DNA of 64,000 nucleotides from Loxodes magnus (taxonomy: Eukaryota > Ciliophora > Karyorelictea > Loxodida > Loxodidae), in assembly GCA_946699065.1 (NCBI GenBank), contig CAMPDV010001270.1:1-64000 (forward strand). The letters run 5' to 3'. Both the position numbers and the translations under genes were made by a program. Under the pieces are notes generated by a model. That model had not been told where the DNA came from, ran no database searches, and was given only the letters and a program-made list of their open reading frames with translations. Positions 33,384-39,274 of this stretch are shown here, piece after piece; positions within the stretch are counted from its first letter, which is position 1, and each line of letters begins with the position of its first letter.

Positions 33384-35711
33384 ATGGATAACATTCAGTG
33401 TCCAAACTGTTAAAAACAATTTGACTAAGACAAGCGAGTATATAAAGTGTTACCTTGTGGATGTAATTCATGCTTGAAATGTCTTAATTTCCTATTTAAA
33501 CTAACTTAAGAAATCAAATGCCGAATTCATTAACAAATTTTTAACATCAATCCTGAATAGTTTCAAGGGCATGTAGTTTAAGAGCCAAATCATTAAAATA
33601 TGCCAATTCAGTAAAATGAATTAATTGATTAAGTGCAATTTAATGAGTAGTTCAAGTGGTTACAGAATTAATACTCTTAGAAATAGAATTACTAACTTAT
33701 GGTGAGAGAAGTTATTTCGGAAAGTACATAGTTTATGAAGCATATCCAGTCGTTATCAATTCAGGAAATATTTAAATCTTTAATAGACTCGTTTTCTCTT
33801 AGCAACAGTAAATTAGAGAATCTATTATAGCGTTTATCTTAGCTTAAAGACTCAAATAATGTTTAATAATTATAAGCTTAAAGAATGGAGTAGTAATAAT
33901 ATTAAAGATAAAATAGTCAAGCTCAAGAATAATTTCAGTAAATTCTAAATGAAATAGCTGAGTTTAAGAGAGATTAGAGATAGTAAATGGACATTTAAAC
34001 CTTAAGAAACAATATTTAGTCATATCAGTTCAATTTGTTCAGCTATTTAAAAGAGAATGTCAACGGAAAATACTTAACGTTGAAGAAGGCAGAGTAGTTA
34101 ATTGAAAAGTTTTTCAAACAATTCAAAATAGTAAGAGATCTTAGTCAAGTTGCAAAGCATATAGATCACTAAAAAGGTAAGGCAAACGTTTAAATCAAGG
34201 AACAAATGGTTAATTAAGAATCTTAAAATAATTAAAACCAAAATTAAGATGTAGTAATAGATTAACAATAAAGAAACTAATAAGTTCAGTTAAAATATGT
34301 TTTAGTTAAGCTAGATATTTCATAAAAAGAGAAATAAATTATTGAAGCCAGAGAGTTAGTTTAAGTAATAGAGTAAAGAGTAGTGAATCTTAAAAATGAT
34401 TTTAAGAATGAAAGTCAAGCAATTTAAGTATGTTAAGAATAACAAAACTTGATCAAGTATGCAATATAAGATTTCTCAAATTTAACATTTGACAATTTAA
34501 ATTAGTTCTTAAACCAGATAAAAGAAGAGAATTTCAATATATAAACTTTAAAACACAATCCATTAAATAAGCCAGGATTAATCGCTTAAGGCTAAATCTT
34601 GTTAAAATTAGCATAAATAACCGACAACTAAATTCGAAACAAATTAAATTAAATTCTGCAACTTTGTAAATCTCAATAGGGAGTAACATAGTTAGCCTCA
34701 AACTCGCTAACAATGTTAATTTACATGAACTTCGCGTTTAACAATTAGAACTTCTCAATCACCGACCTATCTAATGCTGATCTCTCGGACACCACATTCA
34801 CTTCCTGTAATTTCAATAACTCAAACATATCATAATCTAACCTACGCAATACTAAATTTATTAACTGCGACCTCTCCAATTCTAACTTATCATCAATCTC
34901 ATCTGAATACCCACACATATACACCGGACACTCCGCATCAGTCACTTCAGTGGCCTTCCCACCAAACAATGAGTTCATCGTATCGGGAAGTTTAGATAAT
35001 ACGGTGAGACTCTACAACATATGGGACGTCAACACAGGTACCTGTAAGACCATGAGTGGTCACACACATTAGGTATATGCTGTGGCTATATCCAGTGATT
35101 CAGAGTTCATCGTATCGGGAAGTGCTGATAAGACGGTGAGACTATGGGACGTCAAGACAGGTACCTGTAAGACCATGAGTGGTCACACTAGTTATGTATG
35201 ATCTGTGGCTATATCCAGTGATTCAGAGTTCATCGTATCGGGAAGTAGAGATTAGACGGTGAGACTATGGGACGTCAAGACAGGTACCTGTAAGACCATG
35301 AGTGGTCACACTAGTTATGTATGATCTGTGGCTATATCTAGTGATTCCAACTCAATTATATCTGGATCGCATGACTCAACTATTCGTTTATGGAACTCAA
35401 GAACATAATAATGTAACAAGGTCTTATCGGGACATACTTCTTTGGTCTTATCGGTAATATTCTCAAGCAACAACAAGTATATCTTATCTGGATCTTATGA
35501 CAAGACTATAAGAATATGAAATATCAATAATGGGCAATGTGTATGTGTCTTAAATAATTCTGACTATGCAGGAAGTTTATCATTATCAAGGGACAGCAAT
35601 TGGTTGGTATCGAGTACAGGTCATTGGAATTATGGAAGTGTAGCGAGTAATTACGTTATTAGAAGATGGAATATAGGAAGGTTATTGAATGGAGTAGATA
35701 CTAATAGTTAA
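33384..35711 (+). CDS. RING-like / coiled-coil / pentapeptide / WD40 protein, copy B (intact)
   Basis: 775 residues, in phase from ATG to TAA TAG TAG. Residues 6-49 hold C6, C9, C25, C27, C30, C33, C46 and H49, a RING-type zinc pattern. Residues about 60-450 are helical and very Gln-rich (mostly TAA/TAG). Residues about 460-510 are pentapeptide-like ([30 protein letters not shown]). Then come six WD40 repeats, two or three of them nearly identical 123-bp units. TGA occurs at V-W-S (twice) and in IRIWNI, the last kept in all three paralogues. RING plus WD40 suggests a ubiquitin ligase with a propeller for substrate binding; this is inferred. Copy C has one more WD40 unit. Copy B has a 9-bp insert in the first. 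Confidence 0.93.
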
Positions 35712-36054
35712 TAGTAGGTAAGTTCAATTCTAACAACTATTAATTATTTAGACTGACTGGAGCAAAGTATATGCTGACTATGGATTAAGATTTTAGAATT
35801 GCGTAATGGTTAATACTATTATGAGTGCTGAGGACAAATAGAGATGCATCAAGTGATCTATTTGTAGTTAAACTGATTAATTTTTTATATTTAAGAATTT
35901 AAAAAATTGTTAAGTTTTTAATTCTAAAGGAGTACTTTTTGTTATAAAGTTCAAAGATAAAAAATTTTTCTATGTTTATGATTTTTTCTAAATCTTTTTT
36001 TGAACTTAATATTTTTTTAAAACAAAAGTTTAAACTTATAAAAAAAAGTTTTTA

Positions 36055-36861
36055 ATAATAAATAAATGGATGGACAAAAGTTCTGGTGGATTTTCAGAAT
36101 GGGGTTGAATTCTGAATTTCACCTGCGTGAGGCTTATATTTTCCCAGCAGCCACTAGAATTGATCAGTTTAGACGAATCCAATTGATTCCGGACTCGGAC
36201 GTATTTTTTAATACTCAGTTTCTGGAAAAATAAATTCCAGAAACTTGCAAAGGTTTCCGTAAAGGACTCTACTACGCTGGGCAGACCATTCCAGCAAATT
36301 CCGGAGCTTTTATGTGAATTCTAGACTCGATCGTCCAATGTTTAAGTAATCATTTTATGGAAAATTGGCGCCTTTCTGTAGTCGAAAATAAATTCTTACT
36401 TAGTCACTTTTTTGCAGTCTGGAACTTTTGTTCTGTTAAACTTTTAGTTGGACTATTGCAAAGAAGGTGCTGGGAAGAATTTTTTGGAGACATACAAGTT
36501 TTTTGCGGCTTATAACATGATAGTTGTAAGATTGTCATGCAATATCTTAAGATATTGGCAGTAAAGTTACGCAAGGGATTTTAGTGTTTATATTTCGTGA
36601 AGACTTGTAGAAATGATTATTAACTATAAATTAGGAGCATGCTTTGCAGCAATGGAGCCTTATTGGTAAGTGAAGTTGTTGTAGACATGTGCTTGCATTA
36701 ACTAAGGTAATGTAATGAATCGCAATTGGGAATTGGTGGATTCGGGCCTTATCAAGTTTATGGATTTACTTGGTTTGGCTACAAGATAAATCTTTAGTAA
36801 AGCAGATATTGATGCTTTAGACTATCAATTTAATAATATTTAGAATAAAAAAAAGTTTTTA
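36055..36861. mobile_element. 807-bp insertion with 17-bp target duplication
   Basis: The 17 bp ATAAAAAAAAGTTTTTA stands at 36038-36054 and again at 36845-36861. The matching place in arm 2 (about 51384-51405) has it once, uninterrupted, so this is a clean insertion made after the arms were duplicated. The inserted 790 bp are less A+T-rich than the flanks and hold one long reading frame. A 17-bp duplication is typical of LINE-driven insertion. No clear poly-A tail beyond the target A8 is seen, so it may be a retrocopied gene or an unknown gene-bearing element. Confidence 0.85.
36066..36812 (+). CDS. gene carried by the 807-bp insertion, unknown
   Basis: From MDGQKFWWIFRMGLNSEF the frame stays coherent for about 248 codons to a TGA at 36810, with an internal TGA at 36315 (GAFM-W-ILDSIVQCL if Trp). 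Features are REAYIFPAATRIDQFRR, LIPDSDVFFNTQF, GFRKGLYYAGQTIPANSG, several Trp and Cys, and GGFGPYQVYGFTWFGYKIN at the end. Codons are richer in G+C than in neighbouring genes, a sign of a different origin. TAA/TAG are used as Gln (LEKQIPE, GLQHDS). I recognise no family. The start codon lies only 11 bp inside the insertion, as expected of a retrocopied mRNA. Confidence 0.55.
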
Positions 36862-37690: not shown

Positions 37691-37927
37691 TAAAAATATT
37701 TTGAATAAGTAGAAATTATTTTGGATTTAAAAGAAATTTATAACATATAAAACAGAATCGAAAAAAATTAAAACAAACAACTAAAAAAAGCTTACAGAAA
37801 TTAATTTATGTTAATAATAGCTTTCTAAAAAGAAAAAAAGAACAAAACAAAAAAAAAAAAAACTTTTAAAAATTGAAAAAAATAGAAGACTTTAACAAAT
37901 AAAAAAAAGATTTACAAAGTTCTTTAA

Positions 37928-39274
37928 ATGGAAAGCGTACAAAAAAAAGAGAAAGAAAGTTGTGATTTACCGTATAAAATAAGTAAGGAAATGCACAATA
38001 ATTTGACTACTAAATTTTTAATAAATCTTTTATAGAATAGAAAGTATAGTAATTAGTTACCGATTCATAAAAATTCATGCAGTACAATTCTTAAGTTTCC
38101 ACTAAAGTGTATGAGAATTTGGAGAATGTAAAATTAAATTTGAATCAAGTTAATCAAACTATTATTAGCTCTTAGAATCAAATTTAATATTTAAATCGTT
38201 AGATATAAGTTCTATAATAAGAAAATATTTATTTCGAAAATCAGATCAAGAATTTATAGTCTAATAACTTAATTATACAGTAAAAGGAAAATATGATAGT
38301 CAAACGACCTATAATTTGATACTTAATAGCTTATGATTAATGTTAGGGTATTTTTTTAATATACAGACTAAATTTTCATTGGACATACCGCCTAAATAGC
38401 AAGTTTATTCATATCACCAGACTAAGATTTCATATTATCTGGTTCGGGATATCCTGATAATACCATTAAAATCTGAAGCTTTTAGACTTCTACCCTTCTA
38501 AGAACTTTGACTGGCCACTCAAATACAGTTTGATCAGTAGCAATAACAAGGGACCAGAAATGAGTTGTATCGGGAAGTGGAGATAAAACGATAAAGATCT
38601 GGGATTTCTAGAATGGAAGCTGTACGAGAACTTTGACTGGACATACGAGTTCAGTAAACTCGGTAGTTATAGCAAGTGACCAGAAATGAATTATTTCAGC
38701 ATCTTGAGATAAAACAATAAAGATCTGGGATTTCTAGAATAATGCCCTTAAGAATACTTTGATTGGACATACATATTGAGTTTACTCGGTAGCCATAACA
38801 AGTGATCAAAAATGAATTGTATCGGGAAGTGACGATAAAACGATAAAGATCTGATCTTTCTCAACTGGTCGACTTGATCGTACTCTTACTGGGCACTCAG
38901 AATGGATTGGATAGGTAATTTTATCACTTGATAATAAGCAAATAATATCAGGTTCAGGTGATAAATCTATTAAATTATGGGACTTCTAAACGGGATTATG
39001 TATTCGAACTTTAATTGGTCACACAAATACGGTGATTAGTATTCAACTAAGTAATGATTCAAATGTTATATTTTCTAGTTCTTATGACAATTCAATCAAG
39101 ATATGAAATTTTTGTACAGGTGAATGTCTATAGACTCTTTCAGGTCATGAAAACTAAATATACAGCATAGTTTTAAGTAAGGATAACAAAACATTAATAC
39201 TAGGAGGAGAGGATATGGTAATTAGAAAATGTAGAATTACGAGTTACATTGAAGAAAGATCTATTAAACTCTAA
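37928..39274 (+). CDS. WD40 protein D with tiny introns
   Basis: Starts MESVQKKEKESCDLPYKIS. A short GT-AG intron in the 38.08-38.11 kb region leads to a coiled coil (YENLENVKLNLNQVNQTII, LNRQIQVLQQENIYFENQ). A 19-nt GT-AG intron at 38348-38366 then joins exactly in frame to QIFIGHTAQ and seven WD40 repeats. About nine TGA codons fall at usual WD40 tryptophans (DQK-W-VVSGS, SAS-W-DKTIKIW, HTY-W-VYSV, IKI-W-SF), next to others written TGG. The first 16 codons lie in the inverted-repeat arm; the remainder is unique. The last in-phase TAA used here is at 39272; the frame can run on to a TGA at about 39434. Probably a scaffold. Confidence 0.85.

Follow-up and report, generated by a model that had tools for sequence, protein, structure and literature searches.

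The stretch of Loxodes magnus DNA analysed here, called the window below, comprises bases 1-64000 of contig C1270 (CAMPDV010001270.1) and carries long reading frames for WD40 proteins and for long interspersed nuclear elements (LINEs) that are rich in UAA and UAG (together UAR) and contain UGA in frame. The original prediction, made from the letters of this DNA without database searches, held that all three codons are read as sense, UAR as Gln and UGA as Trp. The present analysis concerns the meaning of these codons in the window and in conserved genes of the same genome's assembly (705,730,643 bases in 7,843 contigs; loci designated by L and three digits). The coding features of the window that bear on the question are:

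8590..11241, minus strand: paralogue B, with TGA at its RL and IRI positions, one 1-base frameshift relative to paralogues A and C, and an uncertain 3' end
13321..16599, minus strand: LINE1, a frame for endonuclease and reverse transcriptase with 12 in-frame TGA
19991..22180, plus strand: LINE3, a copy related to LINE1 (70% DNA identity), whose frame changes near 21.75 kb and again near 21.86 kb
29237..30222, plus strand: L29, a LINE fragment that reads LNWLPF (TGG), against LN(TGA)[ML]PF in LINE1 and LINE3
33384..35876, plus strand: paralogue A, WD40 by Pfam, with a zinc-binding-like N-terminus (MDNIQCPNC..), a coiled coil and a pentapeptide-like part
37928..39274, plus strand: gene D, coiled coil and WD40, start uncertain; the WD40 part, 38354-39271, holds nine TGA
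38348..38366, plus strand: probable 19-nucleotide intron of gene D, GTATTTTTTTAATATACAG, linking the frames of the coiled coil and the WD40 part and proposed from the frame change only
51558..54161, minus strand: paralogue C, an inverted copy of A, with TGA at 52484, 52109, 51914 (after IRI), 51680, 51659 and 51605 and a probable stop TGA at 51560
58698..59434, minus strand: L58, a LINE fragment with TGA opposite each of the three LINE1 TGG that align to it in the coding frame

The WD40 parts of gene D and paralogue A were aligned with 120 WD40 proteins, with all three stop codons masked as X. Gene D has in-frame TGA at 38474, 38531, 38561, 38687, 38705, 38777, 38813, 38852 and 39104. Of the homologues aligned at 38474, 38852 and 39104, 96/104, 118/120 and 108/112, respectively, have Trp; at 38531, 38705 and 38777 Trp is one of several residues (7/110, 10/119 and 21/119), and the three that follow DQK (38561, 38687, 38813) fall in columns led by Thr. 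Thr also leads at the similar position of paralogue A, where the codon is TGG (DSNWLVSS). The original prediction had about nine TGA of this gene at canonical WD40 tryptophans: nine in-frame TGA are indeed present, but just three of them occupy invariant Trp positions. Paralogue A has in-frame TGA at 35199, 35322, 35517, 35754, 35775 and 35829 and a probable stop TGA at 35874; the one at 35517, after IRI, lies in a column with Trp in 113/115 homologues. As had been noticed, A, B and C all carry TGA at the IRIWNI position, and the RLW position, expected to be TGA in one copy, is TGA only in the copy at 8.6-11.2 kb (B) and TGG in A and C. Altogether four TGA (three in gene D and the IRI codon of A) occupy columns that are 92-98% Trp among homologues; among the 120 columns with at least 80% of one residue, TGA occurs in four, each a Trp column. 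When 12 TGA columns of D and A were scored, Trp came out as the best residue (log10 6.51) and Tyr as the next (0.74), a lead of 5.8 log10 units; in the same test 10/10 control sense codons were assigned the amino acid that they encode. The residue encoded by TAA and TAG was not resolved by this test of D and A.

The LINE copies provide a second view of the same codon. In the coding frame shared by LINE1 and LINE3 (688 codons) differences at codon positions 1, 2 and 3 number 177, 122 and 317, and the third position is the most variable in 15 of the 17 segments between TGA codons, the other two being a tie and a single codon. LINE3 TGA at 20924, 21071 and 21452 face TGG in LINE1, and LINE3 TGG at 20384 and 20558 face TGA in LINE1. 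When LINE1/LINE3 and LINE1/L58 were pooled, TGG codons in the coding frame were paired with TGA in 8 cases, with TGG in none and with another codon in 2, against 3, 10 and 13 in the two remaining frames (Fisher p = 2.0e-4), and changed TGA had a TGG partner in 8/15 pairs of the coding frame vs 3/63 of the other frames (p = 3.4e-5). Because third positions evolve fast anyway, controls within the coding frame were added: the ratio of exchanged to conserved pairs is 8:0 for TGG/TGA. Synonymous NNG/NNA pairs give 40:9, similar to this (p = 0.33), and ATG/ATA pairs give 2:10, unlike it (p = 7e-4). In these elements TGG and TGA are thus exchanged like synonymous codons. Little is gained from A/B and A/C, which are young pairs (1:7 and 0:7, respectively). 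Three kinds of comparison were left out of the pooled test: LINE3/L58, as both members are already in the pooled pairs and the comparison is not independent; L29/L63 and L57/L63, which have no frame with a clear third-position bias; and LINE1 vs the LINE copy in L013, not independent since that copy is 97% LINE3. L013 is the 10-kb stretch that directly follows the window (C1270:64001-74000). Comparison of LINE1 with 17 distant proteins was uninformative (the residues facing TGA are Trp in only 7% of cases and those facing TGG in 4%). Exchange of UAR with CAR, the codons for Gln, occurs in 17/41 cases in A/B and 6/39 in LINE1/LINE3 in the coding frame, similar to other frames (p = 0.20 and 0.57), and is not used as support. 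The claim that TGA is placed beyond chance is borne out by the WD40 columns and the LINE exchanges. Two of the particular motifs cited for it fared less well: at the two Trp positions of DDWKNWRPIS, LINE3 has TGA once and AGG (Arg) once, and the endonuclease position INET(TGA), taken to be Trp, is Trp in 3/6 aligned homologues.

The 3' end of paralogue A suggests a further role of UGA. A and B show 7 differences in the 39 codons up to TGA 35874 and 69 in the following 61 codons, and GC content drops at this codon from 0.33 to 0.13. Because of this jump in divergence and the drop in GC, UGA seems to end A despite being read through upstream, and TGA 35874 is, from these comparisons, its probable stop. 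In the recent copy pair A/C there is no rise past the stop (8 in 40, then 10 in 61). Three TGA between the WD40 part of A and 35874 fall in a conserved stretch, the numbers being small; TGA 35829 stands only 15 codons ahead of the probable stop. More generally, GC is 0.32-0.33 where A and D are coding vs 0.15-0.18 beyond.

Conserved genes from the rest of the assembly speak both to the ends and to the interior of genes. A histone search of the genome gave 31 matches, and 30 loci were analysed. In 29 of these the first in-frame TGA lies no more than 53 codons past the match, the following 60 bases having a GC content of 0.13-0.28. The stop positions recur among relatives: five H3 genes stop after GERT, four H2B genes after SSGN[TA]A, two copies after KFVG and five H2A genes after the same acidic tail. 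The matched parts, 3071 codons in intact-looking genes, contain TAA 70 times, TAG 59 times, TGA 3 times and TGG twice, and the UAR codons of the H3 gene L019 correspond in solved H3 to Gln in 4/6 cases, to His in 1/6 and to a gap in 1/6. Two NF-YC paralogues (L038, L039) have internal TGA, internal UAR and a terminal TGA; the internal TGA of L039 aligns with an invariant Trp of solved NF-YC chains, and that of L038 does likewise by translation. The actin gene L047 contains four TGA within the frame, two of them at invariant Trp, and its stop TGA directly follows HRKCF. About 40 full-length actin matches with near-equal scores (E-value 1.1e-135 to 3.3e-135) were found in the genome, scattered across many contigs that include C266, C437, C524, C707, C711 and C1162. 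Two eRF1 genes (L015, L016) have no internal TGA and TGA at the end. They are very similar, lie about 35 kb apart on contig C196 (19713-20081 and 54613-54981) and show unusual neighbourhoods of NIKS and YxCxxxF. TASNIKS and YLCDNKF are important motifs of eRF1; compared with the solved chain 4d5n_A, L015 has RAQNIKS for TASNIKS and FLCENTF for YLCDNKF.

UGA at invariant Trp positions inside genes, together with UGA at the ends of conserved genes, points to NCBI table 27, and it is almost certain that the window is macronuclear karyorelict DNA that uses this table. UAA and UAG would then be translated as Gln, and UGA would specify Trp inside genes and termination at gene ends. The use of UGA for Trp is indicated by the WD40 columns, the LINE exchange, NF-YC and actin L047; its use as a terminator by 29/30 histone-fold loci, actin L047, both eRF1 genes and paralogue A; and the use of UAR for Gln by the alignment of L019, the 129 UAR among the 3071 histone-fold codons and the UAR-rich long frames. 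The original prediction is supported at the sequence level, for UGA in the window and for both UAR and UGA in the conserved genes, with the amendment that UGA is also a terminator and not sense only. The suggestion of a karyorelict-type code is right as far as the tiny introns and LINE domains tell: intron sizes, LINE domains and GC content in the window and genome agree with the Loxodes features given in PMC11441545, where the macronuclear assembly of L. magnus is 706 Mbp. For the intron of gene D, an alternative of 25 nucleotides starting at 38342 fits equally well. A first intron of 53 nucleotides was discarded because published Loxodes introns do not resemble it, so that the start of D is uncertain; a 17-nucleotide intron close to the other end of the gene was discarded too, since the last WD40 strand would be lost with it. 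The table 27 code has already been published for karyorelicts; what is offered is a confirmation, from raw DNA, of an established code that uses a single codon for both Trp and stop. Standard gene callers would truncate these genes at internal UGA.

A number of observations weigh against this reading. In the pooled LINE test 7/19 TGA pairs face non-Trp codons, and LINE3/L58 gives no TGG/TGA, 2 TGA/TGA and 7 pairs of TGA with other codons. With A/B and A/C added, TGG/TGA becomes 9:14 vs 8:26 for ATG/ATA (p = 0.25), and the contrast fades. At the nine TGA of gene D, its paralogue D2, located in L013, has 3 TGA, 2 TGG and 4 other codons, and six further TGA of D2 face other codons in D. The H2B gene L033 has TGA where L031 has Arg, the remaining two TGA of actin L047 lie in a variable loop and face Thr and Gly, and one TGA of the pelota gene (L014) is opposite Asn of another pelota sequence. 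Since LINE3 has frameshifts, some of the TGA opposite non-Trp codons are products of decay; others are at variable positions, and a Trp in a relative is not the counterpart of each TGA. Gene ends at UAA belong to the same side of the balance. Gene D perhaps has no UGA at its apparent end: an in-frame TAA lies at 39272 and the next in-frame TGA at 39434. GC falls right after in-frame UAA in D (39272), in D2, which resembles D at its end (about 2330 of L013), and in pelota, where the frame, into which a 17-nucleotide intron fits, ends at TAA and TGA sits one base out of frame, as a one-base assembly error would explain. The H3-variant gene L025 (C327:221690-222034) has TAATAATAA, i.e. UAA-UAA-UAA, at the position of the TGA stop of its sibling L023, and no in-frame TGA over 176 codons past the match; L022 has TAA at that same position and TGA five codons later. 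In L025, pelota, D and D2, UAA may sometimes terminate, or the genes may be broken, or these may be errors. That a minority of Loxodes genes still use UAA as a terminator, which would give two double-meaning codons instead of one, seems to us rather unlikely. If true, it would provide a cause for a published trend: coding UAA, unlike UAG, is depleted ahead of the Loxodes stop, according to section 9 of PMC11441545. Depletion ahead of the stop is reported in that paper for UGA as well.

These gene ends also favour a Condylostoma-type code (NCBI table 28), in which each of the three codons is sense and each also serves as a regular stop near the mRNA end: the UAA triplet of L025 stands at its siblings' TGA position, and the sequence turns AT-rich after the in-frame TAA of pelota, D and D2. 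UAA and UAG were, however, not found as regular stops, since UGA is reached by 29/30 histone-fold loci, actin L047 and both eRF1 genes and a single locus of the 30 lacks a nearby UGA and has a possible UAA end; moreover, the probable introns here have 17 and 19 nucleotides, vs the 15-16 nucleotides given for heterotrichs in PMC11441545 (section 9), and we regard this code as very improbable. Still less probable is the ordinary ciliate code (NCBI table 6), with UAR as Gln and UGA only as stop, under which the WD40 and LINE copies would be pseudogenes in which TGG decayed to TGA. Frameshifts do exist, contrary to the original prediction: LINE3 changes frame and has TGA facing Gly, Lys and Arg codons, and paralogue B is shifted by one base against the other two copies. 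On the other hand, TGG/TGA exchange in the LINE pairs resembles synonymous change and ATG/ATA exchange does not, the third-position bias persists between the TGA codons, TGG/TAG pairs are lacking in the LINE coding frames though equally near a change, and TGA occupies invariant Trp positions in full-length actin and two NF-YC paralogues, so that UGA is not confined to stops. The thought that UGA might encode an amino acid other than Trp, e.g. Cys, draws on certain TGA at variable WD40 positions; given that the next residue trails Trp so far in the column test, that the codon exchanged with TGA is TGG, and that invariant Trp positions are TGA in NF-YC and actin, it deserves hardly any credence. 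Table 27 remains the preferred reading.

Some other features of the region deserve mention. Paralogues A and C, together with LINE fragments, lie in an inverted duplication of 6.4 kb with 94.9% identity (28936-35347 and 52207-58656). Pfam supports the WD40 part of A, the N-terminal and pentapeptide labels being our own reading; as to relatives of A, no viral contig was confirmed, and a protein search gave one weak match. The kelch motifs of the original prediction were not recovered: Pfam reported no kelch match in 23.0-33.0 and 36.0-37.9 kb (both strands), 40.0-49.8 kb (plus strand) and 41.0-47.0 kb (minus strand). Near-identical WD40 repeats form long arrays in L001-L012 (contigs C9, C119, C272, C512, C620, C1503, C1832 and C4046) and occur in the window at 34971-35347. 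In these high-copy arrays the differences cluster at a few codons of the repeat and TGA is found mostly at two variable positions, the invariant Trp column being TGG in 800/828 cases and TGA in none; as the repeats are near-identical and the model was built from only 3 sequences, the arrays were not used as evidence. With this clustering they resemble fungal HET-E-type WD40 genes, and they are possibly a recognition-gene family. The window begins with a tandem array (1-6574) of about 78 copies of an 87-base unit with strong strand asymmetry, and its sole transfer RNA (tRNA) gene is the following:

23106-23178, minus strand: tRNA-Lys(CTT)

A Loxodes tRNA-Trp(CCA) with a 4-bp anticodon stem was reportedly first described by Swart and others (eLife 2024). 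Second-hand mentions of it occur in PMC13092985 and PMC12005148. Karyorelicts including Loxodes are given as having UAR as Gln and UGA as Trp or stop in PMC11441545 (citing Seah 2022), and Parduczia is described in the same way in PMC4967479. Loxodes appears elsewhere with UGA as stop and UAR as Gln (PMC6935857). From this karyorelict code, table 27, of Loxodes and Parduczia the genes studied here show no established difference, although a few of them seem to end at UAA. UGA density varies by gene, from none in eRF1 L015 and L016 to 2.9% of codons in gene D, 1.1% in LINE1 and 1.1% in actin L047, hand-picked genes to be set against 0.12% overall in Parduczia (PMC4967479). The code of Condylostoma magnum (table 28) is similar in that the three stop codons are all sense; there, according to the same paper, UAA and UAG also terminate, as they would here in at most 1/30 histone-fold loci. 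The three codons are likewise reported as sense in Amoebophrya sp. ex Karlodinium veneficum (PMC12005148), which is, however, a syndinean dinoflagellate and no ciliate. Blastocrithidia shares with Loxodes the three sense codons and UGA as Trp, but differs in reading UAR as Glu and in using UAA as stop (PMC12153298).

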